NCBI GenBank assembly: GCA_963931925.1
Contig: OZ007581.1
Span: forward strand, 16,610,450 to 16,674,449
Length of the DNA: 64,000 nucleotides
Reading direction: 5' to 3'
From: Onchidella celtica
Taxonomy: Eukaryota > Mollusca > Gastropoda > Systellommatophora > Onchidiidae
Part shown: in pieces, positions 1,661-60,927 of the stretch
Layout: each line of letters begins with the position of its first letter
Numbering within the stretch: the first letter of the stretch is position 1
The notes under the pieces: model-generated
The model's input: only the letters and a program-made list of their open reading frames with translations
Told to the model about the DNA's origin: nothing
Database searches by the model: none
Program-made: the position numbers and the translations under genes

Positions 1661-1869
1661 TATGTATAAGAGAGAGAGATTTTGTGTTGTAAGTTCAATT
1701 GAACAAAATCAATATAAATGTGCTCCACAGATGTGAGGGTCCTGAAAGTAATTTTCATCTCAGTTATGTTGAAATTTTTATCAAATTATACTTTATCTTG
1801 ATTACTGTGAATATTTCATATTCATATACTGTATTCGTTTTTCTGAAGTTGTTATCTGTCAAATTTCAG

Positions 1870-2546: not shown

Positions 2547-2586
<40 letters not shown>

Positions 2587-3885: not shown

Positions 3886-4071
3886 GTGAGTTCATTCAAG
3901 AAAGATTTGGAGGAAGTCTTCAACATCCCAGCCAGCAGCATAAAGATCTACTGGCATCACGATTTCAATCATGGGGCTGAAATGCCCAACAGTGGAACTC
4001 TGGAGAGTTTGTGTGTGAAGGGCGGAAACATATTAAAGATTAGAGATGGCAGAAAAACATACTGTCATTGA
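3886..4071 (+). CDS. Terminal exon for the C-terminal half of a ubiquitin-like domain (copy 1)
   Basis: The acceptor TTTTCAG ends at 3885 and the exon runs in phase 0 to a TGA at 4069-4071. It encodes about 61 residues: a helix (SFKKDLEEVFNIPASSI), a strand (KIYW), a loop, GTLESL, and a last strand (NILKIRDG). This order matches ubiquitin's helix (KAKIQDKEGIPPDQ), strand 3, the short helix and strand 5. There is no terminal Gly-Gly, so conjugation in the manner of ubiquitin is not indicated. Copy 2 has the same exon with about a dozen amino-acid differences and no stop, which suggests the frame has been under constraint. I do not recognise a named gene. Confidence 0.6.
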   Translation: MSSFKKDLEEVFNIPASSIKIYWHHDFNHGAEMPNSGTLESLCVKGGNILKIRDGRKTYCH

Positions 4072-4892
4072 TATGTTATATAATCAAAAGGTAAACTACC
4101 AGTTAATTTTTCTGATGTAGATTTTTTTGTTGTTGCTGTTTTTGACTTGGATCTGTGGTAAGTCAGGTGTAAGAAATAAACTACCTAATACTAAAATTAA
4201 AAATCTCATAATTATTGTTATTGTTCTTTTTAATTGAAATGAGTTAAATTTTATTCTGTATATGTGTAAAAATATCTTTCTCTGGAACACAATGGAAGTT
4301 CCCCCCCCCCCCAAATTTATTCTAATCAAACCTTTCCCTCTTTCTGTCATTTAATCAGATTTTTCTCCCTTCTGTAAAATTAATCTTCCTAAGCCTGTGT
4401 GAGTTGTGCCATAGATCATCAATTTTCCTTTGAAGATTTCAATATAACATTACATGTATTGATGTCAAATACATTCATTCGGTATCAATGCTGAAAAGTG
4501 CTTGGGGTGAAAAATACAATAACCTAGCTGGATACCTGAGTCAAAAATCGCCAAAAAGAAAAAGTTGTATGTATACATGGAGCCAAGCCTCTCGTTAGAA
4601 ATGATACCCAAACGATACAATGAAATGTAAACTTAAAAAAAGGGAAGACAGAAGGGGAAAAAAAAAGAAAAAAAGAAAAATATATCAAAGTGAAAGTTAA
4701 AGAACTTAAAGAACAGAAAAGAACATTATAGCACAAGGAGGTATGCGACCAGTGGTTGTATTGTGCTGTGTTCTTCTTTCCTGTTATTTTAATCAATCCT
4801 TAGTACATTGTATGTCCTGCCTTCTAGCGTGATTGAAATAGTGAAACTGATTTTTTAAAAAGGTCATCCTCAGTCCAATAAATTCTACTTCA

Positions 4893-5380
4893 TCTATTAT
4901 TATAAAAGTGAACTTTGGAGGCTTTGTTAGCATACTCTTCCGTTAATACTTAGCCCACAAGCTTCAAATTTTACAGTCGTCGACAGTATCTACATACCCA
5001 GGTTTTCGTCACATGAAACATACGAAAACTCCTGTCCCCGAATTTATCAAAATAGATTTTTTCGGTCATTCACCATTTTGAGTGTGCCGGAAGAATGATA
5101 CCATTGTCAATGAACCGGAAGAGCGATCTGATTTTAAAAACGAGCACGGTTTGACGCGCCGACTGAACGCGGGAGTTTGGTTCCGCACCAAGAAACGAAA
5201 CCGTTCTTAGAACGGGGTAATTAAATAAAATAATTCTGTGTGAAATTGTGGTGTAACAGTAAGTTCTATTAGTCATAGCATGGAATACAAATGCCGTTTT
5301 AATGTAGCCTAGATCTAGATATACGGTTGCGCTTAGGGCATGGAAAATTTTGCAAGATATATCTTGCGCGGGTCGGCTAG
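4893..5380 (+). mobile_element. Non-autonomous Helitron (488 bp)
   Basis: The element begins TCTATTATTATAAAAG and ends GCGGGTCGGCTAG. A perfect 16-base palindrome (GCAAGATATATCTTGC, 5352-5367) sits 13 bases before the CTAG end. It lies between host A (4892) and T (5381) with no target duplication. Copy 2 of the same locus has the uninterrupted site at 26691/26692. TC start, CTRR end with upstream hairpin and A/T insertion are the Helitron hallmarks. No Rep-helicase is encoded, so it must have been moved in trans. Confidence 0.9.
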
Positions 5381-22227: not shown

Positions 22228-24126
22228 GTACATCTGTGCATTAGAATAGCAACCGCAGGTAACGGTATGGAAAATTGGAAGGCATTTTGTCCAGATCCGG
22301 TCGCTGGTAAGTTGTTGATGTTAGTGCTTGAGTGGCTTACATGACCAGGCAGAGTTTATGCCACTAAATAATTTTTAAAAACTAACATCTGTGATACCAA
22401 TGTTTGTCTTGTTTCCTAAAAAAATCATACTATTAATCTTTGCTTTGCATATTGAACATACCAAAACAAAACAAAATGAAATTCATCTTTCAAGAGATAG
22501 TTTATACAGCTAACCTTCAAAGCAAAATGAAGTTAGAATCTTATACATGTATGTAAAGTGGGGAAAACTCAAGTATTTGAATTTAATTGTATAGGCAATA
22601 TGATGGGAGGGTAGATACAGGCTGCTACTCTTTCAGACATTCTGTCATGGAAAGTTCTTAAGGATCCTGCATGCAGTTGAAGCTGAGTGACCACCGAGTA
22701 AAACACTGTTTAGCAACAGAATTGAGGTTACTTAATTGAAAAAAAAGCCCTTCACACAATAATATGTTACTTTATTAGGGGATTGCTGTAAAACTCAATG
22801 TGTACCCTTTTTTCTTTTCTTTTACAGTTTCTCAGGAGCCAGAGTCGGGTTTGTATCTCGATTTGCTTGTATCTTCTACAGTTCACGGAGGTAACTTTTA
22901 GATCAGTTCCTGTGTAAAACGATGGTTAGCTAAAGTTTTACAGAAAAAAAGCAGTGACTTCCGTATCCTTTACATCCTTTCCTTTTCAGTGCTAGTTTGG
23001 CGGCCAGCAGATGTTTTTGATGTAAAACTAATGGTTTTCTAAGCTTTTTGGTTGGAATGACAGTCACTTTTTGGATATTTTGTTCTACATTTGGCTAATA
23101 ATTCTTATGATTCTTCTTTTATGATTTGGATAGGTTGGATATATATATATATACTAGAGAGAGAGAGAGAGACTGATTTTGTATTATAAGTTCAATTGAA
23201 CAAAATCAATACAAATGTGCTCCACAGATATGAATGAAGGTCCTGAAAGTGATTTTCATCTCAGTTATGTTGAAATTTTTATCAAATTATACTTTATTTT
23301 ATGTTCTGTGAATATTTCATGTTCATTATACTGTATTCGTTTTTCTGAAGTAGTTCTTTGTCAAATTTCAGTGGCGTGCGGAAGGAGTTTCATCAAGTTG
23401 AAAATTTTGCATGAACTGTCGAGTGGTTCAGTAGTCGAAAGGCAAATGACTGTTGACCCCTCTGATTCTGTAAGACGATTTTTTCTGAGTTCATCATGTT
23501 TTTCTTGTAATGCTCAGTTTTTTCTTACATTTTCGCTGAAGCACAGCTCTACAAATACAATTTCTCTTGTTTGATATTGTTCTTGTTTTCGCATCTCTAT
23601 AATTTCTATAAGTAATTATGTATTATAGTACCGGTACTAACATCGCATCAGACTTGATCATACCAAAAATATAATACATGTACTATAGTCAGATTCAAGT
23701 TTCATGAACCAAAATTTCTGCTGATGTCTTGAAAATGAACGTACCCTTAGAGCCCATCTCAAATGATATGCAAAATCATCTCACTCTCCATGCCAGTGGA
23801 ATGGGTGATTGTAGTTTTAAGCCACTGTTGTCTAGTGACACCCCTCTCCCCCAATCTTGATTCGACCCTCCGTAAGTTCTATTGGGTTTAGAGCACAGTG
23901 ATATGGTGGCAGTTTGAGGACATCATGTCCATGCTGAAGGACTGTAGTCTTGATAGCATAATGTATGCTATCCGACTGATTCTTTTTTAATATACCTCTA
24001 ATCTTCTTCCTCCGGCCTTTCTGGCAGTCATTTCTTTGCCATATATACAGTTATTTGTAAGAGGCCTTCGAGGGAGCTTTTTATAATATCTTGGTCAAAA
24101 GTCATCCAGAAGCCCCCCCCCTCCCC

Positions 24127-24207
<81 letters not shown>

Positions 24208-26042
24208 GAACCTTCATGTTGCACCAACGTTGTTATTACCTACCTTCTCTCATCGACCGGTCATTTTCAATGGGGTTTCAATATAATTACTGTAGTACAC
24301 TGGAACTTGGTTATAACGAGATGCAGTGTTCTACAAAAAAATGTTTCGTTGTACCCAAGATCTCTCTATTCGAGCAAATACATGTACATGTCTGACTCCC
24401 TACACGGCTGTACTGTGGCGGCCACCCCCACAATTTACTGTACGCAATCAGAATTAATTCTCTCGCTGTAGGGAGTGTTTTGATTATCAATTGTCGTTAT
24501 TCAAGTAATTTATAATGCAGCTTAAAATACCATTTTCTCGAGGTTGCCAAGGTTTGTTTTTAACACCACCAGTGTCGTTATACATGACGAGCCACTGCAG
24601 ATAGATCTATTTGTTTGTTTCAAAGGCTTGTTGGTGGAGATGCAGTTAATTTTCCCTTACTTGTCACCTTCAGGTGGCAGTTTGAAGTTTCATGGTAAAC
24701 AACTTCAGTTAACTGAACATATTGCAACACTGTCAAACGGAAATCGCTGCACACAACTTTGAATAATCTGGTCTTAAAAGCTATCAAATATGGTACTAAA
24801 ACAACTTAACTAAATGCGATGAGCATTTATATAATTATGTAGTAAATAAGAGTGCTGCATCATATGACACTTCAAAGTTATTATTATTATTATAAGTTTA
24901 TAATATATAATGCAAGGCAGTAAGCAGCTCTTTTGTAGGAACACATTCATTTCATGCAGCTTCGAGAAGGAAGTTTTATCAGTTCTTTTCAAACACTGCC
25001 AAAAAGTACATCTGCATGTAGACCGCACTGAGATTTGAGTCCTTGCAAAATTTGGGCCCAGTGGGTCCAATGGGCAAAAATCTTGGTCCACGAATTCTGA
25101 AGGGGATTGTATTAATCATAATAATAATTTTTCTATAAAGCAATGATGCCAGTGATGTAAAGCATCACAGTGAACAGCAGTATGAACAAAATTTGCTTTC
25201 CACTACTCTTTTTAACAATTTCCATTCTAGTCCAAATACATATTTTGCAAATTTACGGGATAATTAATCTTTATGTGAAGAACCCTTCGCTGATCTATGT
25301 TTTACGAAACGAACGAATGTCATTCACTCTTTACTCACAGTACTGTGTGTTCACTAAACTTACTGCCCTGTGCACATGCTGCTGTAGACCTTTCTTTTCT
25401 CCGCTACCCTCTGCCCCCCTCCCCCCTTTTCCTTCCACATTTTTTTAAAAAAAATATTGCTGAGGTAGTAGGGATGAGCTAAGGTGGAATGTTCACTATG
25501 TACATGTATAGTGGCATGAGCTTGGAAAGCTGATTGGTCGGTTGGTTCAGAGACTGGAAGATACTCTTGTGACTGTTGGCTGGTATAGAAAACTAGGCAG
25601 TATTTATTTTTCACGAAGCAAAACAGCCAATGCAATGGATTTCTTTTTTTTTTTAATGTGCCTTCCATCAATACTGCTAATTTTTCAAGTGGTTCGATAT
25701 CTTTAAATCAATTAAAGTGATATTTTGTCGTGAGGGAGTTTCATCCAAAGTTCTTGAAAAGCAGACCTGGTATAATTTAACCAGGGTTAAAATAAAAGCA
25801 AAGGAACAAGTTTTGTTGAAGGTGTGATTAGATCTATGTGTAATGAATATTTCCAGGCGAGTTCATTCAGGAAAGACTTGGAGGTCGTCTTCAACATCCC
25901 GGCCAGCAGTATAAAGATCTACTGGCATAACGATTTCAATCACCAGGCTGACATGCCCAACAGTGGAACTTTGGAGAGTTTGTATGTGAGGGATGGAAGC
26001 ATATTAAAGATTAGAGATGACAGAAAAACATACAATCATTGA
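22228..26042 (+). CDS. Candidate split gene for a small ubiquitin-like protein (copy 2)
   Basis: This is the most complete of three related loci. Exons with good splice signals and matching phases are 22228-22306 (reads VHLCIRIATAG..., ends phase 1) and 22828-22890 (SQEPESGLYLDLLVSSTVHG, ends phase 1). A very small exon starts at 23228 after CCACAG, with its end uncertain. Then come 23372-23469 (ubiquitin-like first half) and 25857-26042 (ubiquitin-like second half with stop TGA). The last two join in phase 0. The first two exons are not recognisable by family. No start codon exon is visible upstream, where a SINE lies, so the 5' end is missing or further away. No C-terminal Gly-Gly is present. 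Conservation of frame between copies 1 and 2 is the best sign that it is or was a real gene. Confidence 0.5.
23372..23469 (+). CDS. Exon, ubiquitin-like first half (copy 2)
   Basis: Acceptor TTTCAG ends at 23371 and donor GTAAGA starts at 23470. With two leading bases it reads FIKLKILHELSSG, then a second strand ending MTVDPSDS. It ends in phase 0, matching the exon at 25857. Relative to copies 1 and 3 it has P-to-S and E-to-V/Q changes, so it is the more diverged one in this half. Confidence 0.55.
24118..24206. repeat. (CT)n microsatellite
   Basis: This is a long CT run preceded by poly-C. It is the same tract as the shorter one at 2508-2586 in copy 1. Confidence 0.95.
25857..26042 (+). CDS. 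Terminal exon, ubiquitin-like second half (copy 2)
   Basis: Acceptor TTCCAG ends at 25856. The exon reads SSFRKDLEVVFNIPASSI, then KIYWHNDF..., GTLESLYV, ILKIRDDRKTYNH and a stop. Compared with copy 1 the differences are mostly substitutions without stops or indels, and the helix and the IPASSIKIYW core are unchanged. Confidence 0.6.
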   Translation, partial: ASSFRKDLEVVFNIPASSIKIYWHNDFNHQADMPNSGTLESLYVRDGSILKIRDDRKTYNH

Positions 26043-28390
26043 TATGTTATATAATGAAAAGATAAACTACCAGTTCATTTTTCGTATGTCAGGTGGAAGA
26101 CATAAACTAATTCTAAAATAAAAAATCTGATAATTGTTGTTATTGTTCTTTTCACGTGAAATGAGTTAAACGTTATTCTGTATATGTGTAAAAATATCTT
26201 TCTCTGGAACACAATGGAAGCCCTCCCCCCCCCCCCAACCCCCACCTCCCCCCCCCCCCCCCCCCCAAATGTATTGTGATCAAACCTTTCCCTCTTTCTA
26301 TCATTTAATCAGATTTTACTCCCATCTGTAAAATTAGTCTTCCTAAGCCTGAGTTAGTTGTGCCACAGATCATCAATTTCCTTTTGAAGATTTCAGTAAA
26401 ACAATACATGTACTGATGTCAAATACATTCATTCGGTATCAATGCTGAAAAGTGCCTGGAGTGAAAAATATAATAAACCAGCTGGATATCTGAGTCAAAA
26501 GTTGCCAACAAGAAAAAAGAACAAAAACATATCAAAATGAAAGTAAAGAACAGAAAATAACAACACAGCTCAAGTGGGTATGCGACCAGTCGTAGTACAT
26601 GTATTGTGATTTTCTGTTGATTGAAATAGTGAAAGTGATTTTTAAAAAAAGGTCATCCTCAGTCCAGTAAATTCTACTTCATTAAATATAATAATTTGAC
26701 ACTTATGCTTTTTTAGTTGTTGTTTTTTTCTAATCCTATAGCCAAAACAACTCAGAATTTTGGGCTTAACTTTTATCTGTGGTATATAAACTGTATGCAT
26801 ACATATATTATATATTTATATACAGTATGGGATGAAGAAAAAGCCCATTTACCGAGGGCAGCATGGTGAACTGTTGTAATGAAATGGGAAAAAATTACAT
26901 TTCTCATGCTTGTACTTGTAGCCCTTGGCACTAATGACAGCCTGCATTTTGTGCTAACAGTCGGGGGGTAAATTCTGAAAATGAAGGGCTAAAGTGAAAT
27001 AATGTTGTTTTTTTTTTTGTTTTTTTAAATATCATTACTCTTAAGTCTTACAAAGAAAGTTATTCAGGCTTTTGTTTCTCCTGAAAAATGTGTAAAATCT
27101 GAGTTATGACAGTTTTACTATGCAGTCCTGGATATTATCTATCTCAATTTGCTTGTAAGTTTGATATTGTTTTGTGTGCTGGTAGAGCTAGATGCAATGA
27201 GTTTATTTCCTTTATTTGTATGTATCTTGACACTCAATTTATTTTGGGTTGAATTTTAAGAACTTGGAGTGTTTGATCTTTTTCTTTGTTACTGAATTTT
27301 GAAGCTCAAACAGCTTTTAAAAAATAAATCTACAAAAAGGATTTGGATGAAAAAAAAGCTAAATAAAAAGACAAGTCACATTTTGTTTTCTGTTCATTTT
27401 TCATTTTTATTATTGCTGGCCATTGCACACATGAAATAAATACGTTCATACATCAGTGACATCAAAAATTTAAAATACATCATGTACACTGTTTAGTACC
27501 TGTCAATTCACTTACAGAAAAATTCACAATACAAGATGCATTGGGAAACAAACAAACATAGGAATATGAGAATTCAGTAATCACATGCAAATAGCTGTTT
27601 CTCTATATTGATACTAATGATAGTCTAAAGAGAATTGTCAGATGGTAACTCTTTCTGTACCATTTGTCGATATATCAATCATAATTTGGTCTCAACTGGA
27701 CCATACACTGATGTATCCGCATTGTGAGGATACCTCAACAGCAGTCCTCTAATAACTTATCATTGTCTTTAAATACACGATGCGCACTTCATTTTGTTAA
27801 AATACCGTATAAATGTTAATGAAAATAATGTTATGATAGAATAACTTCAGGCCTGCCCTCCATGTTCTGATTATGTATCTTCCACAGCAATATGCTGTTA
27901 ACCCTCTAGCGCCCAGTGTACTACATTTGAAATAGGTCACCTGGAGCCAAAATGCTCCATCTTTGATACACTTACTCTTCCAATTTTATTGTCAAGTAAT
28001 ATTTCCAAAAAATAATTTTTATTTTTATTTTTTTTTACAATAATCAGTCTATTTAAAATAAGCTCAGCATATTATTTCAGAAGTTCTGGAATTGGATATT
28101 TTTGTCTGGGCACTACAGGATTAATCATTGCATCATAATAAATTTACCACTGTGGAATGAAGTAAATTAAATACATGTAAATCAATAGTTTACTCAAAGT
28201 TAGAAGAAATGAATATTGGACCAGAAGGGGAATTGATTGTGGTATGGAAATTGTTTTAACTACGTGAACTTCAGTATTGGAATTTACACTCTGACTGTTG
28301 CTATGGAACCACAGTTTGATTACAAAGCAGAATAGAGAGAACAATAAGCTGTGTTCGCTGTTCAACTCAAGCTTACTATGTAACATAGAC
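26043..28390. other. 3' flank of ubiquitin-like copy 2
   Basis: This is noncoding similarity to 4072-6960, minus the Helitron and plus a TTAA-flanked insertion at 27902-28120. Long poly-C tracts lie at about 26224-26266. Confidence 0.7.
27902..28120. mobile_element. TTAA-flanked MITE, piggyBac-like (219 bp)
   Basis: TTAA flanks both sides (27898-27901 and 28121-28124), and copy 1 has a single TTAA at 6595-6598. The ends are CCCTCTAGCGCCCAG and, on the other strand, TCCTGTAGTGCCCAG. TTAA duplication and a CCCT-type end fit a non-autonomous piggyBac-like element. It encodes nothing. Confidence 0.82.
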
Positions 28391-34279: not shown

Positions 34280-36019
34280 AACCTAGAGGGTGAATAAGTA
34301 TAACAGGTGGATTACGTCATTTGTACCGTGTTTGATGACGTCAATAGAGGGAAAAACATGTAGTGACAGGATAGAGTAGATAGAAATAGTAAATAGGATA
34401 TCACTGGTGTTTTTGTGAATGGGATAGAGAGAATCAGCGGGAATATATACTAGGGGAGATGGTGGATATTGAGATGGAAAGATAATGGGCCATTGATGAA
34501 GATTAACACCACGTGTTCGACTTGGGGGTGAGAACTTATTTGTCTAAGTCACCTAGCCGTTAATTTGACAACCAATCAAGGCAGGCGTATTGATAGCATT
34601 TGGGGAGCTGGGAAAGCAGCTGACGGGGGGACTGCATTCCGTGCAGACTATCCAACTGCGAAGGAGTCAGGGGGATTCCACTTGAGCGAATCATTACCTA
34701 CAAAGTACAACATGTCTAGATGTGGATCGTCATTTAGATATCCATATGGCTGCTTTGAAATTAAACAACGCTATCGTTGACTGTTCCCTGGCTTAATAAG
34801 CCAGGGCAAGGGTGAGTGATCGAATCTCTTGATGACATTGACAATGGATAAGAAGACGAAGAGCGTGGCATTTATCCGTTAGGAGAGTTTTAATGAATCT
34901 ACCAGGAGTGATTGCCGAACAATGCAAGATTCAAAGTTAAACTGTCATCTAGAGCTGCAAATAGAGTTAATGTATGAAATACATAACTGTGATTGAATTG
35001 TCTGGGTGAGGCTGGGAGTTGCCAGCCCATCCTAGAGTTATATTTAACTGTGCCGACGTCTCCATGGCCAGCTAGACCTATAAGTTTAAATATCTGAGAT
35101 AGCCTGATGTCTCCAGAGACTATATTAATTGTCATACAGTAAGCAGTCCAGATCTTGGAAATAGAAATAATTAGTTAGATAATTAGCTAGAATTGAAGTT
35201 AAATGATATTATGGGAAACCTAGATCTAGACTTATAATGAATTACTATTGATTTGGGATTTGATGCTGCTGATATTCATCCTTACTACATGAATAGATCT
35301 AGTCGAAATCGTTAGGGAACTAACGTAATTAAAGTGTGGCGCTGCAGGCCTGATTGTTGAAATTTATTCAGTTTTTTTTTAAAGTATTTGGCGTGGTCTG
35401 GAAGTGAAGGGTCTGGCGACCAGTCAAAATGAGACGTAAGTTGCTGGTCTGGAACGGAGGAATCGGGAGATAAACATAATGGAGGAGTCAGATATCGAAT
35501 TTTTTTTAATTCTCGAAATGAAAAGTACAATCATTTCTGAACAAGAAAATGTTAATCTTGTTGGAGAATTATGACTATAAATTGGTTAAATTAAGGTTTT
35601 CCTGAGGTAAGTATGACTCAGAGTGTTGCCAAACTGTTCAGTTTTGCCGTCATTTTGACTTATTTGAATCAACTGTATTCGATATTCATATATCCGCTAC
35701 CCAAACACAACGGGTATCGTTGGAAAGCTTATTTACTGTACTTTCATCTCATTGGCTTTGTTAAAGAGCCAAGTTCAAATCCAGCCAATGGAAAACGATT
35801 TTATAGCGTAAACAAAAAGCAGGGGTCTGGGTCTTTGCCCTAGCAACGCGATCTTTGATTGGCTAGATCGTGTCACATGACCAAAAAGAGTTCCAATCTT
35901 TTTCGTTTTGACCACTTCCGCTCCACTGTTTCGGGTTCGTTTTCACCCACATTCAGTCATTTCATTCATTGCGACACGACTTATTTTATACGCTCTTACT
36001 CATTTTATTGGATTTGATC

Positions 36020-36260
36020 ATGGCCTCACGCGAGGAGACAATAGCCAAACTGTTGACTTCATCAGTCAGCGCCAACATTGGGAATGAGGACAATATTCAG
36101 AGTCTTATTGAAGACTATTTCATCAGTGAGGACGATGTTGTCTTATCTGATCCAGAGCCAGACAGCGACGGTGAATGTGATTGTGACGATGATGAAGTTC
36201 TAGACCCCAAGAACCGGCCAAAATGTGAAGATGTCGGTCCACTTTCATGTTCATGGTTGT
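36020..36260 (+). CDS. DUF7869-like gene, exon 1 (acidic N-terminus)
   Basis: The start is the ATG at 36020; an open frame extends upstream only with non-ATG starts. The exon encodes MASREETIAKLLTSSVSAN followed by a strongly acidic stretch (EDDVVLSDPEPDSDGE, CDCDDDE) and a Cys-containing end (CEDVGPLSCSW). A strong donor, GT/GTAAGT, follows 36260. The exon ends in phase 1 but the next visible exon needs a phase 2 partner, so at least one exon between them is missing, undetected or lost. Confidence 0.55.
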
Positions 36261-36907
36261 GTAAGTACATGATTGTATTCTTTATCAGTTTTGTTTCTTC
36301 CAAGCAGTACATGTATTATTATTAGATCTCAAAGACATTAGCCTGATTATCTCAATAAATTGATACTCATCAACATGTATGAGGGGGTATTATAGCAAGG
36401 AGATTCACATTATCATGAGTGAAGAAAAGAAGTGTTTTCTAGTTTCTCTTGATCATGTCTCTAGTAATGGATTGAAATCCATTATGATTTATTTAATGTA
36501 CAGTGTGTCAGGACAGATGTCATCAATACTATTTTAAACTATTTATTTTTAATCTCAAAATGGCCGAAAGAAAAAAAAATGCAAAAAAAAATAAATTTTT
36601 AGCGAATAGCTTTTTATTTGTAAAAAGAGCAAAGCAACCTGAACAAGTTTCATAAAAGAAACAGAAGAAATAAATTCAGTGCAGAGAAAGGTAATACATT
36701 TTAAAACTGGCGTATTGCCTTGTCATTAATTGAGGGAAGGAAAAGATGCAGACAAGTAAGAAAAGATAAAGTCAACAAATGAGGGCAGCTAGCACATCAT
36801 TGAATTTAACATGAAACCTGAGAATGTTAGTAGCTATGAGTGCCATATTGCCATGCAAATTGCATCTTTCCCTGTTGTAACTGTTGTAGATTTTGATACC
36901 TCCTCAG

Positions 36908-37181
36908 GATATCGACAAACAAACTGGATGCAATTAAAAAGCACATACTGGAATTTGGAGCAGTACCCAGACAATTGAAAAGTGGAGGTCGAAACAAACG
37001 TGCATTCACTCATATTGATGTGGACCGTATTGTGACATTCCTGCACTCTTATGCAGAGACACATGCTCTTGTCATGCCTGGTAGGATCCGCTCCATCAGC
37101 AGGACAGACTTGAAACTCCTGCCTTCAGTCACACAAAGGATTTTGTGCACAAACAGTACAAAGAAGCCCAGACACAATCAG
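36908..37181 (+). pseudogene. DUF7869-like gene, exon 2 with a 2-base frameshift
   Basis: Acceptor CCTCAG ends at 36907 and donor GTAATA starts at 37182. The first part reads STNKLDAIKKHILEFGAVPR and continues to HALVMPGR and LKLLPSVT. The reading that fits the family and the splice phase after that is in another frame (KDFVHKQYKEAQTQS). The switch is at CACACA (37129-37136), as if one CA had been duplicated. The second frame joins exon 3 in phase. Unless this is a sequencing or assembly error, the copy is inactive. Confidence 0.65.
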
Positions 37182-37647
37182 GTAATAGTTGTAATGTCTT
37201 TGATTGTAATTGAATAGACATTGTTTATAATCTCGGAAATAATGAAATGAACTGTATGAATGATCAGTGAATCAGAAGACGCTTTTCAATTTTCTATCTT
37301 TAAAACATCTTTAAAAATTAAAGTCAGAATTAAAACATGAACACAGCGTCCTTTTCTTTATTCCATCCTTCAACCCAAACCCTATTCCCCCAGAAAGAAG
37401 AAAGATATATAATTATAAAATTATTTTAAAAAAAAGAAAACTCGAGAGCAGACTTTTTATTGGTTCAAATTTTCTCCCCCCCCCCCCCCCCCCAACATTC
37501 ATGATCTTATAGAACTTAAACTGTTAAATTCATCCACTGAACTGGGATGATAATGACGTATCAGAAGAGTTAGGTATATTATGTATGATCTTAAATTCTT
37601 TTGTCTTCTCTTCCCTCCCCCCCCCCCTTCTAATTTTCCAATGACAG

Positions 37648-38774
37648 GACATTATGCAGTAAGCTTGAGTTCCTTCAAGCGAGAGTGGAGGAGATATTGC
37701 CCTGAAATTTACGTGACAAGGCCGATGACAGACCTCTGCTGGGTATGCCAGAACAACAATAATAAAATTCAGAGGTCAACAGGCATGTCGACAGAAGTTA
37801 AGGGCGCCCTTGTGGAACGACAGCAGCAGCACCTTTTTGAGGTCACACGAGAGAGGTCGTATTACAATTCTCTTGTGGAGGATGCCAAGCGTGTTGCTGG
37901 GGAATCTAGGATGAGTGCATTGGAGGCATCCACACCAAACAGCAGAGCGATAGAAATGCACTATAGTTTCGACTATGCTCAACAGGTGCACCTCCCCAGC
38001 AACCCACTCCAGCCAGGGCCTCTCTACTTTTTGATACCACGAAAGTGTGGTATTTTTGGTGTCTGCTGTGAGGCCATCCCACAGCAAGTAAACTTTTTAA
38101 TAGATGAGGGGATGTGCTCCAGCAAGGGCAGCAATGCTGTCATCTCCTATCTAGATTTTTTTTTCAATAACTATGGCCTCGGGGAACAGATCGTCCACCT
38201 CCACTGTGATAACTGTGCGGGGCAGAACAAAAACCAGCATGTTCTGCACTACCTTGCTTGGAGGGTGATGACTGGCCAACACAGGGAAATCAATTTGCAT
38301 TTTATGCTGCCTGGTCACACCAAGTTTGCACCTGACTGGTGTTTTGGGCTGTTAAAAAAGAAGTTTCGAATCAGCCACGTCTCCAGCCTGCAAGAGATGA
38401 GCGAAGTTGTCAACAGCAGCACACACAGGGGCATCAATTATGCACAGCTTGTTGGAGACGAGGCTGGCAACGTCCTTGTGCCAAGCTACAATTGGCACAC
38501 CTTTTTCTCCAAATCGGGCAGACCACTTCCTGGGATTAAAAGTCTACAGCATTTCCGATTTGTTCGGACAAAGCCGGGAGTGGTTGTAGCCAAAGAAGCT
38601 TTGGATGGAGTTGAGGTGGAGAGAGTGGTGCTCACTCGCCAGCCCGAGCAACCCAGACCAGATGCCATCCCACCTCCTGGACTGCCAAGGGTGAGACAGG
38701 AATATCTATTCCATCATATAAGACAATTCGTCAAGGAGGAGTGGCAGGACGTGGTGTGCCCTCGGCCGCAATAA
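37648..38774 (+). CDS. DUF7869-like gene, exon 3 (conserved domain)
   Basis: This is the terminal exon, from acceptor ATGACAG (ends 37647) to TAA at 38772-38774; a polyadenylation hexamer AATAAA overlaps the stop. About 375 residues, read without interruption. Visible motifs in order are RPMTDLCWVCQNNNN (Cys pair), a helical segment rich in Glu/Arg, SFDYAQQVHLPS, GPLYFLIPRKCGIFGVCCEA, LHCDNCAGQNKNQ (Asp at 38208-38210), FMLPGHTKFAPDWCFGLLKK and a Pro-rich tail. Asp in FDYAQ, CDNCAGQ and APDWCFG could form an RNase H-like acidic triad, as in many transposases; this is inference. Recognition of the family is from memory of its motifs. Open frames upstream of 37648 lie in the poly-C intron. Confidence 0.75.
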
Positions 38775-39815
38775 ATTTTTGTCTGTATTACCTTTAAATT
38801 GCAGTGGTAGTGATACCATGAAAACGGTTCCTGATTGTTGTTCATTGTAAATAATATTATATTTAACTTGCACTGGTGGTAAAACTACTGTGGTGTGTAA
38901 TTTTAATAATCATTAACTTGAAACTACTGTCTTATTTCAATGATCTTTAACTGACGCTGGTGGTGAGAATGTGAATTCTTGGATTTTGGAGTTTGTAATT
39001 ACTGCTGTGTACTTCCTGAGGTGTTTTTCATTGAGGGGTAAGTTGGATCTACTTTTATTACTTAAGTTCTGCAAGTAGTACTTTGTTTCCTACATCTGCA
39101 TCTTTTAGTTTTAGGGTTTCATTGTTCCCCCTTCCCTTTTCCCTTGCACTAATCTTCCACCTTTCTTCCTCTTCCTGCATTATTTGCATTGTGTGTTGAC
39201 AAAACTGCTATCCCTTTTAGCATTTTTTGTTTTTTAAATCTACTCTATATTGGATCATTGTTTTATCATGCTTTGCTAACTACTATAGTTCACTACTACC
39301 AAGGTGGTCTGTATCCTCAATTTTTTTCCTCAATTTTACCATTAGAAAATGGATGGACAGGGGGAAGGGGTACTCTAAATTCTGCATTGCTTTTTAAGAT
39401 ATAAATGATGATTTCTACTGCCAATGCTGAAAATCAGTTAGTAAATATATTACTTTAGCAGTTCAACTTCAAATTTCACACTTTTATGCATGGTTGCTAA
39501 GGAAAAACCTGGTCTGAACATGCCCGACCTTTAATCGCGATTTTCTCGGAATTTCCGCCATTGCATGGAGGCCACCCCCCGTCTCTTTAAACTGCTATAT
39601 CTCGGGCTACAATTAAGCTAGCTCAAAAATTTTTTCATCACTTGAAAGTACAATAAATAAGCTTTCCTATGACACCAAAAGCTCAGTTACAGTAAAAATC
39701 GACAAACGTCTCATTTTGACTGGTCGCGAGACAAGGTTAAATTTTAATATTAAGAATATGCAGTCGAACATACACACCAAAACAACATTAAAATACCAAC
39801 ACTTCCATCCATAAC

Positions 39816-47152: not shown

Positions 47153-47254
47153 AACCACGTATTGCATTGCAATGTTATCAACCACGCATTGCATTGCAAT
47201 GTTATCAACCACGTATTGCATTGCAATGTTATCAACCACGTATTGCATTGCAAT
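47153..47254 (+). repeat. 27-bp tandem repeat, 3.8 copies
   Basis: The unit is AACCACGTATTGCATTGCAA followed by TGTTATC. Each unit contains ATTGCA-T-TGCAAT, an odd-centred palindrome. Single units stand at the matching place before R units 2 and 3 (near 49170 and 51710). Confidence 0.9.
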
Positions 47255-47399
47255 CTCCCCATTCCCCCTTTCGCTCTTTCTCTCTCTCCTTCTCTCTCTT
47301 TCTCTCTCTCCTTCTCTCTCTCCCCCTCTCTCTCTCACACACACGCAAATACATACATACGCACACAAACACACACGTACGCAAACACACACACACACA

Positions 47400-49309
47400 C
47401 TATTGATCAATTAAAAAAGAAGGAAAAAAATTCGTAGACATTCACAGTATGAAAAGATACCTGAAACCCACAGAGGAAATCCCATGACGTGGCTTAGCAG
47501 CGGGGAAACCCGAAGACGTGACATGGCACTTTCCGCTATCTTGGGTATTACACGTAACGCCCTCCTATTAAATTCCCGCATGAGATGTTCCAGTCCCATT
47601 TTCCGCGTCTCCAGCAGTAGACCAGGTCAAGAAGTCATTTTTCAGTTGTGTACGAGATAACCCCACTTCATGCTTGCCGGGAGACTCAGATAGGCAGATA
47701 CACAGCGAGCGTGAATTTACGGGTTGGTATTTTTCATTCACACCGGTAAGATCCCTTTTTTTTTTTTAATTTCCTGATGATCTGGATTTAGTCTGCCATC
47801 CATTAGGCTTTGGAAAATAAGGATATTCAGCAATGAACGCTAAAGCGTTTTAGTGGGCGATGAAGGAAAGTCAATAATATATAATTCATTTACTGTGTAG
47901 ATCTAGGATACAATATGTTTGCAATTCACATTATTTATGGTTGAAAAAGCAAAAAAGCTGCTATCCGCGCATAGCTCTGACCACTGCCATGCCCCGTCAC
48001 TTTCTACCCCATGTAGCACGTACACGTATTCCTTTTTTGTTACTTAGCCGCGAGCACGCCGAAAGGTTTACAACAGCCGGCACAAAGTATTCGCGCCACA
48101 GGCCACGTGCTCATGAAAAAAAGGATCGGAGGGCAGCAGTCAACGAGACAAAGCAAACTTTTGAAAAATGAAAAACAAACGCAATAAAAAAAAAATCCAA
48201 ACTTTTGTACACCCTCCACGGTATTTGGAACCTACATGTAAAATTTGCTTACTATCGGTGGCCTAATAAAAAAAAAAAGCCTTCTGCGTTTAAAGATGGA
48301 GAATTTATTAATTAGATAGATGGATAGATAGATAGACAGATAGACAGACAGACAGATAGATAGATAGATAAAAGTTTCCTTTTTCTGTCTGGGAGATGGA
48401 GGGGGGGGGGGGGAAACAACAACAAAACACAGTAAGCGACATTGTTTCCAAAACCCCAGTTCAGTAAGATGTTAGAAATGTAACAAACGTAGATCATGCT
48501 ATAATACTGTAGAGCTAGAGGGTGAACATGAAAACATCTAAACCTCTATAGATTTGCTCAAAGGCATTGGGCATAATGATTTTAAGCTTATAAGATGAGA
48601 TATAATTTTATTATCCTGTTGTCAGGAAATTTGTGGCCACAGCTTCAGTACAACAGTAAATACAATATCTCACTCACACAGGTCTTTAACCCTGTACCGT
48701 GCACATGCATATTGCTCACATAACTATACCAGCAAATAAGAACATTACTCACACACATACTGTCAGAACAGCACATCAGGAAAAGTATCAACAGCACACT
48801 ACATCAGGAACTTCGAATGGTGGATGGCAAAAAAAGATCGTCTATAAGGCATAATCCTGTACAACCTACATTTAGTGTGTCCATATTTCGTTGTAGCAAG
48901 GAATAACACCAAAGTGGACTTGTAGGCAAGTGTTTAAATATTCCGTTACGTTTTGTCTTATTTTCATAGCATGAGGTAAATGCTGATAGTCATTATTATA
49001 GTATATATTCTATATTAATTTATATAAATTACATTTCATGTTTACTTCATAAATAATTATATTTAATTCTGATTCTATTTCTTACTACGAAGTTTCCCTC
49101 ATCTGCTTATTTCAAACTTTTATTCATTATCAAACTTACAAGAGATGAACAGCAACATCTGGGCGTTAACAACCACGTATTGCATTGCAATCCCCCCCCC
49201 CCCAATCCTCTCTCTTTCTCTCTCCCCTCTCCTCTCTCTCTCTCTCACACACACACACATCCACACGCAAACAAACACACACGCACGCAAACACACATAC
49301 ACACACACT
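47400..49309 (+). repeat. R tandem array, unit 1
   Basis: This is the reference copy of R, about 1.9 kb. It runs through the CT/CA microsatellite junction, CCCATGACGTGGC, AAATTCCCGC, GATCTGGATTTAGTC, GTTACTTAGCCGCGAGCACG (empty site at 48044-48046), a GATA/GACA microsatellite (48313-48380), a GTCTGGGAGATGG block and TATAAATTACATTTCATG. No coding frame is conserved between units. Confidence 0.85.
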
Positions 49310-51797
49310 ATTGATCAATTAAAAAAGAAAGAAAAAACATTCGTAGACATTCGCAGTATGAAAAGATCCCCGAAACCCACAGAGAAAATCCCATGACGTG
49401 GCGTAGCAGCGGGGAAACCCGAAGACGTGACGTGGCACTTACTGCTATCTTGGGTATTACACGTAACGCCCTCCTAGAAAATTCCCGCATGAGATAATAT
49501 GTTCCAGTCCCATTCTCCGCGTGTCCAGCAGTAGACCAGGTCAAGAACTCATTTTTCGGTTGTGTATGAGATAACCCCATTTCATGCTTGTCGGGAGACT
49601 GAGATAGGCAGATACACAGCGAGCTTGAGTTTACGGGTTGGCATTCTTCATTCACACAGATAACATCCCAATTTTTTTTAATTTCATGGTGATCTGGATT
49701 TAGTCTACCATCCATTAAGCTTTGGAAAATAAGGATGTTCAGCAATGAACGCTAAAGCGTTTTAGTGTGCGATGAAGGAAAGTCAATAATAATTATATTC
49801 ATTTACAGTGTAGATCTAGGATGCAGTATGTATTCACATTATTTATGGTTGAAAAAGCAAAAAAGCTGCTATCCGCGCATAGCTCTGACCACTGCCATGC
49901 CCCGTCACTTTCTACCTCATGTAGCATGTACACGTATTCCTTTTTTGTTACTTATGCCGCAGTCTCACCAAGAAAACTCGTGTGCGAACGTGTCAAATTA
50001 AGTCGTGTACGTACGTTTCCACACGCACACGAGCAAAATTCGCACAAGAGCTGACACGTTCGTGCACGAGCCCACGCGTGCCCACACGACTCGCACACGA
50101 ATAACCTTCGCCCCCTCCCGCCAGGACTGATTTGAGGCCCAAATTGCACAATTCGCACACGAGTTGTGCTATACTCGCACGAATTGTGGAGGAGGAGGAC
50201 AAGTATAAAAGCGGGAGCCAAGCGAAATAACACAAGCAGGCCCTATATATAGGGTAGTCTCACTGTACTCGTGCGCGAGTCGACCCGAACGTGTGGGCTT
50301 GTGTCAACACGCACGAGTAGGCTGCCACGTACGCGTGAGCTCGTGTGCGAATTTTTCACATTCCTGAGTGGATGCGCGCGCATCAGTTTGGTGCGTGCTG
50401 ACACGAACCCAGGCGAACGCCTCCGCTCGCATGTCAACAAATCGCACACGACTTGCCGAAAAAATAAGGCTGGAGCTATTTTTCTGCAGCTAGGCACGAG
50501 TTTGACACGAGTTGGTGTGTGAGGGCCAAAAACACGTGCACGCCTCAGCACGCACGAGCTTCGACAGCGGCATTAGCCGCGAGCACGCCGAGAGGTTTAC
50601 AACAGCTGGCACAAAGTGTTCGAGCCACAGGTCACGTGCTCATGAAAAAAAGGGATCGGAGGGCAGTAGTCAACGAGACAAAGCAAACTTTTGAAAAATG
50701 AAAAACAAACGCAATAAAAAAAAAATCCAAACTTTGGTACACCCTCCACGGTATTTGGAACCTACATGTAAAATTTGCTTACTATCGGTGGCCTAATAAA
50801 AAAAAAAAGCCTTCTGCGTTTAAAGATGGAGAATTTATTAATTAGATAGATGGATAGATAGATAGACAGATAGACAGACAGACAGATAGATAGATAGATA
50901 AAAGTTTCCTTTTTCTGTCTGGGAGATGGGGGAGGGGGGGGGGGGGGACAACAACAAAACACAGTAAGCGACATTGTTTCCAAAACCCCAGTTCAGTAAG
51001 ATGTTAGAAATGTAACAAACGTAGATCATGCTATAATACTGTAGAGCTAGAGGGTGAACATGAAAACATCTAAACCTCTATAGATTTGCTCAAAGGCATT
51101 GGGCATAATGATTTTAAGCTTATAAGATGAGATATATTTTATTATCCCGTTGTCAGGAAATTTGTTGTCACAGTTTCAGTCCTACAGTACAACAGTAAAT
51201 ACAATATCTCACTCACACAGGTCTTTAACCCTGTACCGTCTACACGTACATTGCTCACATAACTTTACCAGCAAATAAGAACATTATTCACACACACACT
51301 GTCAGAACAGCACATCAGGAAAAGTATCAACAGCGCACTACATCAGGAACTTCGAATGGTGGATGGCAAAAAAAGATCGTCTATAAGGCATAATCCTGTA
51401 CAACCTACATTTAGTGTGTCCATATTTCGTTGTAGCAAGGAATAACACCAAAGTGGACTTGTAGGCAAGTGTTTAAATATTCCGTTACGTTTTGTCTTAT
51501 TTTCATAGCATGAGGTAAATGCTGATAGTCATTATTATAGTATATATTCTATATTAATTTATATAAATTACATTTCATGTTTACTTTATAAATTATATGT
51601 AATTCTGATTTTATTTTTTACTACGAAGTTTCCCTCCTCTGCTAGTTTCAGAGTTTTATTCAATAATTATCAAACTTACAAGAGATGAACAGCAACATCT
51701 GGGCGTTAACAACCACGTATTGCATTGCAATCCCCCCCCCCCCACCCACCCATCATCTCTCTCTCTCTCTTTCTTTCTCTCTTCCCTCTCTCTCTCT

Positions 51798-51854
<57 letters not shown>

Positions 51855-51885
51855 GCCCACATACATACACAAGCACACAAATACA
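49310..51885 (+). repeat. R tandem array, unit 2
   Basis: It is almost identical to unit 1 over its whole length, apart from the 618-bp insertion at 49955-50572 and microsatellite length differences. Its microsatellite is at 50845-50902. Confidence 0.85.
49955..50572. mobile_element. CGTG-rich MITE-like insertion (618 bp) with TTA duplication
   Basis: TTA at 49952-49954 and 50573-50575 flanks the insertion, and unit 1 has one TTA at 48044-48046. The ends are TGCCGCAGTC and, inverted, TGCCGCTGTC. The interior is crowded with CGTGTGCGA / CACACGAG words on both strands. A TATAAAAG stands at about 50201-50208 and a perfect palindrome CCCTATATATAGGG near 50241-50254. AGTCTCAC near each half (49961 and 50255) suggests a dimer. 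A 3-bp TTA duplication fits PIF/Harbinger-like elements. No protein is encoded. Confidence 0.85.
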
Positions 51886-52974
51886 CACAATAAAAAAAGA
51901 AAGAAAAAACATTCATAGACATTCACAGTATGAAAATATCCCCGAAACCCACAGAGAAAATCCCATGACGTGGCGTAGCAGCGGGGAAACCCGAAGACGT
52001 GACGTGGCACTTACCGCTATCTTGGGCATTACACGTAACGCCTTCCTAGAAAATTCCCGCATGAGATACACGTAATATGATCCAATCTCATTCTCCGCGT
52101 GTCCAGGAGTAGACTAGGTCAAGAAGTCATTTTTCGGTTGTGTATGAGATAACCCCACTTCATGCTTGTCGGGAGACTGAGATAGACAGATACACAGCGA
52201 GCTTGAGTTTACGGGTTGGCATTCTTCATTCACACCGGTAAGATCCAAATTTTTTTTAATTTCATGATGATCTGGATTTAGTCTACCATCCATTAGGCTT
52301 TGGAAAATAGGGATGTTCAGCAATGAACGCTAAAGCGTTTTAGTGTGCGATGAAGGAAAGTCAGTATATTCATATAGTCTACAGTGTAGATCTAGGAAGC
52401 AGTATGTTTGCAATTCACATTATTTATGGTTGAACAAGCATAAAAGCCGCGATCCGCGCAGACCCCTTATCACTTTCTACCCTCTGTAGCAGATAAGCCT
52501 ACATGTATTCCTTTTTTGTTACTTAGAGGCAGGCACGCCGAGTGGTTTACAGCAGCCGGCACGAAGTGTTCACGCCACAGATCATGTGCTCGTGAAACAA
52601 GGGATCGGAGGGCAGCAGTCAACGAGACAAAGCAAACTTTTAAAAGGAAGCGCATATCCGTACAACATGCTGTGCACACAATTCGATGACGTAGAACACA
52701 CAATGTGAATGAATCTTCTTCATTCATAGAAGAGCGCTTACATTTTAGACCAATCAGGTAGAGCTACCCCAGCCCACGTCATTGAATTGTGTGCAAACAT
52801 GTACGGATATGCACTTCCCTTTTAAAAAATGAAAAACAAAAGCAACAAAAAAAAAATCCAAACTTTGGTGCACCCTCCACGGTATTTGGAACCTACATGT
52901 AAAATTTGCTTACTATCGGTGGCCTAATAAAAAAGGCCTTCTGTGTTTAAAGATGGAAAATTTGATAAAAATTC
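51886..52974 (+). repeat. R tandem array, unit 3, left part
   Basis: It matches units 1 and 2 up to AAAGATGGAAAATTTGAT, where an R2-like LINE interrupts it. The unit resumes at about 61626 in its GATA microsatellite. It contains the MITE at 52644-52821. Confidence 0.82.
52644..52821. mobile_element. TTAA-flanked MITE with long inverted ends (178 bp)
   Basis: TTAA at 52640-52643 and 52822-52825 flanks the element. The ends AAGGAAGCGCATATCCGTAC and, inverted, AAGGGAAGTGCATATCCGTA stay similar for about 50 bp. Units 1 and 2 lack it. TTAA targets and no coding capacity fit a piggyBac-like MITE. Confidence 0.82.
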
Positions 52975-53120: not shown

Positions 53121-53311
53121 TTAATAATTCCTATTATACGACCTGCATCTTTTATTCCAGATTTTGAATGATCCAATAACTGAACTGATACTACAGTACT
53201 TAGATATGAACGTACTTTCTGAATTGTTAATGTTTAGTTTCTTCAGCCCAGTAATAAGTCTTCTGTGAACATTTCCCAAACTTCCAATTATTAAAACTAT
53301 TATATCACATT
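53121..53311 (-). pseudogene. R2-like LINE, C-terminal end of the protein
   Basis: The minus strand reads CDIIVLIIGSLGNVHRRLITG and onward to a TAA at 53121-53123. A hydrophobic run ending in GSLG/GALG plus a basic helix is typical of the last part of proteins with an R2-type restriction-like endonuclease. It is cut from its upstream half by the retrotransposon. Confidence 0.65.
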
Positions 53312-53915
53312 TGTCAGGGTTAGGATTTGAATTGCCGTGCTAGGTCACGCATTGTTTATTACATGGCATCATTGATTTTAGCCAGTGCAAACGTCCTTGA
53401 ACTATTCCCGTGGACAGTTTGTTTTTGTAACGCTTTTCTTAGAGATGGAAAGAAAGTGGGTCAGGATAGAACGAATGGATAAATTAACAGTGACGATGCA
53501 GTTTTCGACCCCGTGGTTTGGGTGTACCTTAACAGGGAAAGACGGGGCGAATAAGGAGTGAATAAATTCGTACAAAGAACGTTTAGGGTGTAGAGACTTT
53601 GCGAACGGTTTTGATAGACTTGAATAACTTTGTCTGTTACTATTAATAGAATCTATTGGCGCTGCGAGCGGAGCTCGAAGTGGATGCACCAATCAAATTT
53701 GAGCAGTCACGTGGACTTGCAGAAGATTTGGCCGAAGCCATCTTGAGATTTAATCACTTCCATGTAGATCTTCCAGCTACGAGGGTTGTCGGCTAATACG
53801 GTTCAGCCAGAGAGAACCAACAGACTGTTAAGTCATGTCTATGTCCTGGATAGACAATGAAAATAATCCACAGCTATTTTCTCCAGTTCCCTGAAATCGT
53901 TTCAGGGAACCAATC
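53312..53915 (+). repeat. 5' LTR, first 604 bp only
   Basis: It matches 59639-60242 without a difference I could see, then diverges after CCAATC. The break lies six bases beyond a perfect 10-bp-stem hairpin (53887-53909). About 685 bp of the LTR are missing. The 96-codon minus-strand frame inside is duplicated only because the LTR is. Confidence 0.85.
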
Positions 53916-58959: not shown

Positions 58960-59638
58960 TTTCCTATTAAAGAGTGTTGTGTCTTGTATTGGGGTTGGAT
59001 AGTGCTTGTCCCCCTCAATTCTAGACGGTGGATGGATTCACATTTATCTTGTTCATTACTTTATGAACCAGTTTTACAATCCTTTTTTTTGTGAATATCC
59101 TCTTTCCACCAGCGTCATTCCTGACTGTGACCTGAACTTCTGGCAAACCTGACGCCCTTGTCAGCGGGTCAATGAGATGGACACATGGCAAACCAAGCTA
59201 CCAGAGCTACTGCTGCCATTGGATACCACAGTATTTTAATTAACAATATATTGTGTGTGAATGTGTATATAAGCAGCAATTGTGTGTGTTGACTATATAG
59301 TTATAAGCCTATTCCTTCAGTAAGGCTTCATTATTTGATAATAGTTATACTTTAATCCACCAGTATAAAGTGATATACTCATTATTATTAGAGATGTTTC
59401 TAAGAATTTTGATTGTATGCAGTAAGAATGTTTAAATAGAATAAATTGTATAGAACGTGGCATCAATAATTGTATGCTTTTTGTCCATCCAATATGCACG
59501 TTCTTAGTTAGATTTTTCTTCTCAAGCTTAAGACTCATTTTTCTACAGTACTACTTAAGCCCCTACCACAATAACTTTGAGATTTCTTGGATCTTATCGT
59601 GTAAATTTTATTTAAAATTTTCACTGTGGTGGGGGATA
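58960..59638 (+). other. 3' noncoding region and polypurine tract of the Gmr1-like element
   Basis: No open frame of note. GGTGGGGGATA immediately before the 3' LTR (59628-59638) is the likely plus-strand primer site. Confidence 0.65.
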
Positions 59639-60927
59639 TGTCAGGGTTAGGATTTGAATTGCCGTGCTAGGTCACGCATTGTTTATTACATGGCATCATT
59701 GATTTTAGCCAGTGCAAACGTCCTTGAACTATTCCCGTGGACAGTTTGTTTTTGTAACGCTTTTCTTAGAGATGGAAAGAAAGTGGGTCAGGATAGAACG
59801 AATGGATAAATTAACAGTGACGATGCAGTTTTCGACCCCGTGGTTTGGGTGTACCTTAACAGGGAAAGACGGGGCGAATAAGGAGTGAATAAATTCGTAC
59901 AAAGAACGTTTAGGGTGTAGAGACTTTGCGAACGGTTTTGATAGACTTGAATAACTTTGTCTGTTACTATTAATAGAATCTATTGGCGCTGCGAGCGGAG
60001 CTCGAAGTGGATGCACCAATCAAATTTGAGCAGTCACGTGGACTTGCAGAAGATTTGGCCGAAGCCATCTTGAGATTTAATCACTTCCATGTAGATCTTC
60101 CAGCTACGAGGGTTGTCGGCTAATACGGTTCAGCCAGAGAGAACCAACAGACTGTTAAGTCATGTCTATGTCCTGGATAGACAATGAAAATAATCCACAG
60201 CTATTTTCTCCAGTTCCCTGAAATCGTTTCAGGGAACCAATCGTAAGTTTCATCAAAATGATTCGAGATGATGTGAATCTGACCCTAACTTTCCAGTAGA
60301 AGTGCGATCAAAGGAATGCAAGACCATAAAGTTTTACTTGCAATTAAGATCTAGAAAGAGTGACTGATATACACATTTGTAAATTGTAATTGATGTGTCT
60401 GGATGAGGCTGGGGATTGCCAGCCCATCCTAGAACAGATCTAGATCTATCTTAACTACGTCAGTGTGTCTTGACGGTTTGATCCTTTATAAGCAGTTAAC
60501 TGAGTTAATATTGTCGTCTGAGACCTAAGTATATCATTTGTGAGATAGTAGGCAGTCTATATTTCTGAAGATAAATAATTACTAAGTAAACTGTGTATGA
60601 ATCAGAATGATATAGAGTTTCAAATCTCTTAAGAATCTAGAGGAGATTTATAGTTATGTATTTTAGTATTTTCATTTGATGCTGCAATGTTGTCTTTTAA
60701 TATGTAAACGATAGACGAAATTGTTAGGAATTTAAGTAATAAATTTGTGGCCCTACAAGGTCCTTGATATAACTTACTCGAAATTGTTATTAGTGTATGT
60801 GGCATGGTATGGCAGAGTAATTTCTAAAACCTCTCGATAATTATTAAAAATGCAGTCGAACACCTAAATTTATAATTTAGTATACCCTTCCTTGAACTCG
60901 TAACACTCGAGGACCCACCTCGTAACA
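59639..60927 (+). repeat. 3' LTR, full length (1289 bp)
   Basis: It starts TGTCAGGG and ends CTCGTAACA, followed by ACATT. The first 604 bp equal the 5' LTR. The second part carries the GAGGCTGGGGATTGCCAGCC hairpin region (about 60404) shared with the solo LTRs at 18939-20308 and 34280-39815. A small internal repeat (GTAACACTCGAGG..., GTAACA) occurs at its end. Confidence 0.85.

Follow-up and report, generated by a model that had tools for sequence, protein, structure and literature searches.

The Sola2 transposons, which belong to the Sola superfamily, were reportedly described by Bao et al. in 2009. In the passage on Sola in PMC10741241, the superfamily is characterized by 4-bp target-site duplications, a DDD transposase, and terminal inverted repeats (TIRs) of 11–1124 bp. 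The Sola2 elements of dictyostelids, as treated in the Sola2 passage of Bao and Jurka (2013; PMC3627910), have AWWT duplications (ATAT, AAAT, and ATTT in P. pallidum), TIRs that are either 12–13 bp or an imperfect 21 bp, and an 888-aa transposase, and they carry Fanzor1. The window, by which we mean the whole 64-kb stretch of DNA analyzed here, contains a damaged copy of a multi-copy transposon whose DUF7869 gene very probably specifies the transposase responsible for its movement. The element resembles Sola2, and if it belongs there, as seems likely, its kind has been described before.

The features of the window copy are listed in Table 1. Its two 27-nt TIRs are complementary at 26 of 27 positions, the one mismatch and the AAGG on either side having already been recognized in a first-pass annotation of this DNA. 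In the eight copies examined, the left arm of a pair of subterminal inverted repeats starts at element position 303 or 304 (303 in the window copy) and the right arm begins 57 nt from the 3' end; these repeats are a possible transposase-binding site. The window holds no further copy of the element ends, even with as many as 7 mismatches per 24 nt tolerated. With 150 nt from the 5' end as the query, 40 scored matches were obtained in the genome, the window copy counted (of the 39 others, C33:2927 was left out of the retrieved copies). A perfect 4-bp duplication is present at the TIR boundary in 29 of the 33 two-ended copies, a count that excludes six of 39 (L022, L030, L031, L034, L050, and L052), in which the second end is absent from the retrieved span. 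Among the same 33, a 5-bp duplication was found once and 3- and 6-bp duplications never. The duplication is AWWT in 28 of 33, and the AAGG of the window copy is atypical of its family. The first-pass annotation had proposed a discrete DNA transposon and had named the lack of a second copy with the same ends as the finding that would count against it; many copies were found, and the proposal survives.

Table 1. Features of the DUF7869 element (positions in the window)
Feature	Position	Strand	Remarks
Left target-site duplication	35407..35410	.	AAGG
5' terminal inverted repeat	35411..35437	+	27 nt
Subterminal inverted repeat, left arm	35713..35746	+	34 nt, 88%
First coding exon remnant	36020..36232	+	MASREETIAKLL...; truncated by internal deletion; limits by eye
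Internal deletion scar	36232..36233	.	~1.44 kb vs copy L024
Middle coding exon	36908..37181	+	ISTNKLDAIKK...LLPS; splice sites by eye
Last exon, encoding the predicted RNase H-like DDD core of the transposase (DUF7869)	37648..38774	+	open over 374 residues; 5' boundary by eye
Proposed catalytic Asp 1, D108	37971..37973	+	FDYAQQ; predicted beta-1
Proposed catalytic Asp 2, D187	38208..38210	+	CDNCAGQNKN; just past predicted beta-4
Proposed catalytic Asp 3, D229	38334..38336	+	GHTKFAPDWCFG; predicted helix 227-240
Subterminal inverted repeat, right arm	39643..39676	-	
3' terminal inverted repeat	39706..39732	-	27 nt
Right target-site duplication	39733..39736	.	AAGG

An undamaged gene is found in none of the three long two-ended copies (the window copy, L023, and L024), which are 98–99% identical, suggesting recent mobility. 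L023 carries a deletion identical to that of the window copy, so that a deletion derivative has spread. The coding stretches missing from the window copy are present in L024 (a CxC stretch identified by eye and a KRTRISYY stretch by tblastn match), and the N-terminus of a homolog, P0043, resembles the first-exon remnant by eye. The middle exon of the window copy is frameshifted near 37127; the frame of L024 continues to ...HTKDFVHKQYKEAQTQSG. A TGA near 36894 was considered as a nonsense codon and dropped, being more likely intronic when compared by eye with L024.

The last-exon frame matches Pfam PF25273 (DUF7869) with an E-value of 9.3e-18 and 64.9 bits against a gathering cut-off of 26, confirming the earlier family assignment; of three ORFs of the element compared with Pfam, it is the only one that scored above cut-off. 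Its product is predicted to adopt an RNase H fold, with three Asp residues forming the active site. In the predicted fold, the motifs that the first-pass annotation had put forward as an acidic triad (FDYAQ, CDNCAGQ, and APDWCFG) fall on beta-1, past beta-4, and on the next helix, which agrees with the transposase role it had suggested. The resulting spacing is D-78-D-41-D, the 41 being kept in 288 and the 78 in 266 of 298 homologs. A fourth conserved Asp, D152, lies on predicted beta-3; since D152, like D187, is invariant in a 37-row alignment and D108 and D229 are only >90% conserved, the choice of triad depends on the fold. The predicted RNase H fold supports the assignment. A PDB profile search returned a single match that is not credible (E = 0.53). 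Plain Foldseek gave weak matches, the best of them NurA at E = 8e-4 and TM 0.15; NurA and Argonaute ranked first and Tn5 and Hermes lower. Absence of a family from these fold listings does not exclude it.

Named members of PF25273 come from fish, molluscs (gastropods including Littorina, Patella, and Aplysia), echinoderms, annelids, a nemertean, a priapulid, and a coral, and are labelled "uncharacterized" or "hypothetical." Scans of viral contigs yielded no relative, whether the query was the window protein, the alignment, or a protein of bacterial origin, and a first scan of genome contigs with the single window protein gave nothing useful.

DUF7869 also occurs in bacteria. Seven bacterial elements with inverted repeats (L001, L002, L004, L007, L008, L009, and L012) measure 2.0–2.7 kb, and in six a single DUF7869 ORF fills most of the space between the repeats. 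These insertion sequences have the protein family, inverted repeats, and A-x-x-T flanks in common with the window element; they differ from it in having mostly one open frame (six of seven), TIRs that mostly start with G runs, and identical 4-bp flanks in only three of seven (AAAT in L002, AATT in L008, and ATTT in L012, boundaries set by eye). Convincing ends were not found for L005, L006, L010, L011, L013, or the divergent bacterial L078 and L079, and L003 begins within the gene. In surveys for PF25273, all 12 genomes of our own bacterial loci were positive (that of L005 left out), as were 7 of 389 genomes in the order of G003, 2 of 42 in that of G004, and 1 of 25 in that of G012, known holders counted; the three order surveys yielded only two new holders, and the control genomes of each survey none (0/14). 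A second search for TIRs covered five bacterial genomes and recovered only the two ends of the known Desulfocicer copy, and tblastn with the Desulfocicer protein found no match in plasmids and phages. No IS family name was found for the bacterial elements, ISDol1 having been considered.

Several well-known groups are set apart by their target sites. Duplications are TTAA in piggyBac and Kolobok, 8 bp in hAT and P elements, and 3 bp in PIF/Harbinger; retroviral integrases have Glu as the third catalytic residue and a shorter spacing. The MULE passage of PMC10741241 gives 7–12 bp. With 4 bp in 29 of 33 copies, hAT, MULE, PIF/Harbinger, and P are ruled out by length, and so is Tc1/mariner (Mos1, Sleeping Beauty), which duplicates the 2-bp TA and for which there was no Pfam match. 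TTAA is found in none of the 29 duplications, which rules out piggyBac and Kolobok, and the retroviral integrases differ both in lacking a credible match in the PDB profile search and in their active site, as against the predicted D-78-D-41-D.

The window copy by itself gives one 4-bp duplication, and ends and duplication might be coincidental, with DUF7869 an ordinary host gene within a repeat; we give this practically no credence in view of the 40 scored copies and the 29 matched flanks, since re-dealing the right flanks among copies in 2000 rounds produced a mean of 7.6 and a maximum of 16. The catalytic role of DUF7869 is a prediction, and the gene could be a passenger in an element moved by another enzyme. 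Against this very improbable alternative stand the predicted transposase fold and triad, the lone above-cut-off Pfam match among the scanned ORFs, and the lone DUF7869 ORF that dominates six bacterial elements. That DUF7869 is a DDD transposase, whether of Sola2 or of a separate superfamily, is in our judgment almost certain.

We regard the element as likely a Sola2-type DNA transposon that moves by cut and paste, with DUF7869 as its DDD transposase. The likeness, drawn from published descriptions of Sola2 and the Sola superfamily, lies in the 4-bp duplication, the AWWT target (AAGG in the window copy), TIRs whose 27 bp fall within the Sola range, and a predicted DDD enzyme; the Sola superfamily also spans bacteria to metazoans, as DUF7869 is found in bacteria and animals. 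Points against this reading are the AAGG of the window copy, the weak Foldseek matches, the identical 4-bp flanks in no more than three of seven bacterial elements, and the damaged gene in all three long copies. The first-pass annotation had placed the transposase outside the usual 4-bp-duplication groups, a view that these descriptions do not support; the window copy's AAGG would have been misleading here. The window element differs from the dictyostelid Sola2 described in PMC3627910 in its longer TIRs and its subterminal repeats. A rather unlikely alternative is that DUF7869 is a cut-and-paste DDD transposase of a superfamily separate from Sola2, the AWWT 4-bp target being shared by chance. 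In its favor, DUF7869 is still listed by Pfam among domains of unknown function, a literature search on that name had no match, and the window copy has AAGG. A protein search aimed at dictyostelid Sola2 found none so named among the 120 of 354 matches listed, mostly nameless entries. The agreement of target, enzyme, TIRs, and host range with the Sola and Sola2 descriptions speaks against it, as does a literature search for AWWT with "transposon," which returned only PMC3627910 with its Sola2 passage. A survey of 39 genomes with HMMs for 17 superfamilies including Sola2 (PMC10294476) reports mollusc Sola only in bivalves, in a sample that included five gastropods, and several gastropods have DUF7869; it was the only paper returned for Sola2 with gastropod. 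Its main text was searched for Aplysia, Patella, and Gigantopelta, and Littorina, Patella, and Aplysia are not named there; because these DUF7869-bearing gastropods are absent from it, the survey is a weak point against Sola2, which mildly lowers our confidence in the Sola2 name and raises that in a separate superfamily.

On the Sola2 interpretation, the transposase would bind the terminal and probably also the subterminal inverted repeats, excise the element, and join it to target DNA cut with a 4-bp stagger, with AWWT as the preferred site; repair of the gaps would then leave the 4-bp duplication. It could also mobilize internally deleted copies in trans, among them the one in the window, which has lost ~1.44 kb with coding sequence and is frameshifted.

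PF25273, filed as of unknown function, thereby gains a very probable role as the transposase of a transposon that appears to have been recently active, with a predicted active site that is testable, and the "uncharacterized" animal DUF7869 genes could be reclassified. Relatives lying between inverted repeats link this animal transposon to the bacterial stock of insertion sequences. Were the superfamily separate, it would span bacterial insertion sequences and many animal phyla and be marked by a D-78-D-41-D signature of its own and a 4-bp AWWT target, and hundreds of "uncharacterized" animal proteins would be transposases without a superfamily placement.

One related empty site was found for the element family. 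For the window copy itself, BLAST with the joined flanks gave no match spanning the junction. The left-flank repeat (34956-35397) has relatives within the window at 19472-19007 (minus strand) and 60369-60838, and when the joined flanks were aligned to these two relatives in MAFFT, a short common stretch, ATGCAGTC..., reappeared about 30 nt beyond the insertion point.

The element's 27-nt ends, with a single mismatch between the inverted repeats, and its AAGG flanks are present as the first-pass annotation had recorded them, and the genome search with the element ends that it had suggested as a check returned further copies: at least 40 scored places, the window included, match the first 150 nt at 95–100% identity (1.14-Gb assembly, among 120 candidates). 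Thirty-eight of the 39 other places were retrieved, giving, with the window, 39 copies for analysis; a matching second end lies inside the retrieved span in 33, and none was found within the span in six. Identical 4-bp flanks border 29 of the 33 two-ended copies (ATTT, nine; ATAT, nine; AAAT, eight; AATT, two; and AAGG, the window copy alone), the exceptions being the loci L025, L046, L047, and L038, the last with a 5-bp ATATT repeat instead. Random re-dealing of the right flanks (2000 shuffles) gave a mean of 7.6 and a maximum of 16 matches, versus the 29 observed; shifting the boundary by one base reduced the 4-bp matches to 10 and 11, and other flush match sizes were rare among the 33 copies (2-bp, nine; 3-bp, none; 5-bp, one; 6-bp, none). 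Because their left flanks share no mutual similarity (megablast, E 1e-5), the 33 copies look like separate insertions. When their joined flanks were compared with the retrieved sequence and the window, one alignment crossed the junction: the flanks of L045 match a stretch of L037 (69% identical) carrying a single ATTT, a related empty site.

In the window copy, both AAGG flanks deviate from the pattern AWWT (W = A or T) at two of the four bases; the explanation is either occasional use of other targets by the enzyme or a change at the site. The left flank of the window copy is part of a dispersed repeat whose relatives lie at 19472–19007 (minus strand) and 60369–60838. BLAST of the joined window flanks gave no alignment crossing the junction; in a MAFFT alignment with the repeat relatives, a short common stretch resumes about 30 nt beyond the insertion point.

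The copy that looks nearest to full length is L024 (5766 bp). The window copy is 98.4–99.3% identical to it and lacks approximately 1.44 kb after element position 822. The missing segment encodes a CxC...C motif (recognized by eye against homologs) and includes the greater part of the KRTRISYYRGKQICRSTFMF stretch, which has a tblastn match. L023 (4288 bp) has the same deletion, at 98.5% identity, but a different target, ATTT. One deletion at two targets indicates that the defective form was mobilized, presumably by transposase produced elsewhere. The window copy has a frameshift near 37127, where L022, L023, and L024 keep the reading frame; the last exon of L023 and that of L024 each carry a frameshift close to the third aspartate of the proposed catalytic triad. 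Internal-deletion derivatives of 1.4–1.6 kb make up 29 of the 33 two-ended copies and constitute a large non-autonomous subfamily. The short derivatives among L025–L059 mostly carry a slightly altered 5' terminal repeat, GTCTTGCGACCAGTGACTATGAGACGT. All eight copies inspected share a 34-nt subterminal inverted repeat, whose left arm lies at element position 303 or 304 and whose right arm lies at position 57 counted from the 3' end.

With an alignment as query, bacterial genomes yielded 13 DUF7869 loci, including one in cultured Desulfocicer vacuolatum DSM 3385. Inverted repeats surround the gene in seven (L001, L002, L004, L007, L008, L009, and L012); the other six are without them or cut off. 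In six of the seven, a single open reading frame of 635–668 codons, stop to stop, fills most of 2.0–2.7 kb; the frame listed for L012 has 310 codons. With the boundary placed by eye at the repeat's first G, the flanks read A-x-x-T in 14 of 14 cases and AWWT in 13. Three loci have identical 4-bp flanks (L002, AAAT; L008, AATT; L012, ATTT), weak proof of duplication taken alone, since both flanks share the A-x-x-T pattern. Bacterial DUF7869 genes are sporadic (7/389, 2/42, and 1/25 genomes in three orders, known holders counted). Two divergent bacterial genes (L078 and L079), one with DNGPTNKN replacing DNCxGQNKN, have no recognizable inverted repeats. Many relatives of the bacterial protein, among the matches listed, lie on contigs of at most about 2.05–2.3 kb, near bacterial element size, which are possibly collapsed repeats.

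Sola transposons are described as encoding DDD enzymes, with 4-bp duplications and terminal inverted repeats of 11–1124 bp, from bacteria to metazoans (PMC10741241). PMC3627910, the only one of the open-licence PMC papers searched to have AWWT together with "transposon", gives AWWT duplications for Sola2 of Dictyostelium fasciculatum and ATAT, AAAT, and ATTT for that of Polysphondylium pallidum, the set seen here. Against Sola2, a survey that screened 39 genomes (36 mollusc, three annelid) with HMMs of 17 superfamilies, Sola2 included, reports Sola within molluscs from bivalves only, with five gastropods sampled (PMC10294476), whereas DUF7869 is named from several gastropods. The point is a mild one, because these gastropods are not among the species found named there and an intron-split gene may be missed in an ORF-based screen. 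We file the DUF7869 domain as the element's transposase and the element as Sola2-like, without proven membership. The open-licence PMC papers searched do not mention DUF7869; the link may still be published.

In a tree of 49 rows of our choosing, nine of them bacterial loci, with midpoint rooting only, a large set divides into 12 rows including seven of the bacterial loci and 26 comprising the window and 25 others, the named ones animals, each group with a starred branch. The remaining 11 rows form a second set; a protein from a freshwater sponge and the other two bacterial loci are among them. Among the matches listed, four DUF7869 proteins of 875–928 aa (P0236, P0287, P0288, and P0295), one named Ephydatia muelleri, also carry PF13912 zinc-finger domains, pointing to domain fusions in a sponge and perhaps in other organisms.

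The element and other repeats in the window
Feature	Position	Strand	Description
DUF7869 element	35411–39732		27-nt inverted repeats; AAGG on each side
607-bp direct copies	53309–53915; 59636–60242		99.8% identical, 5.7 kb apart; look like LTRs of a young retrotransposon
5-kb segment, direct copies	1669–6858; 23164–28387		several pieces, 75–91% identity; probable dispersed or duplicated repeat
Portion of 5-kb segment	42790–43877		recurrence
Cluster of similar direct repeats	47228–52963		about 82–93% identity; probable nested or tandemly duplicated repeat
Open frame, 348 codons	32543–33589	minus	on visual inspection resembles a portion of a non-LTR reverse transcriptase
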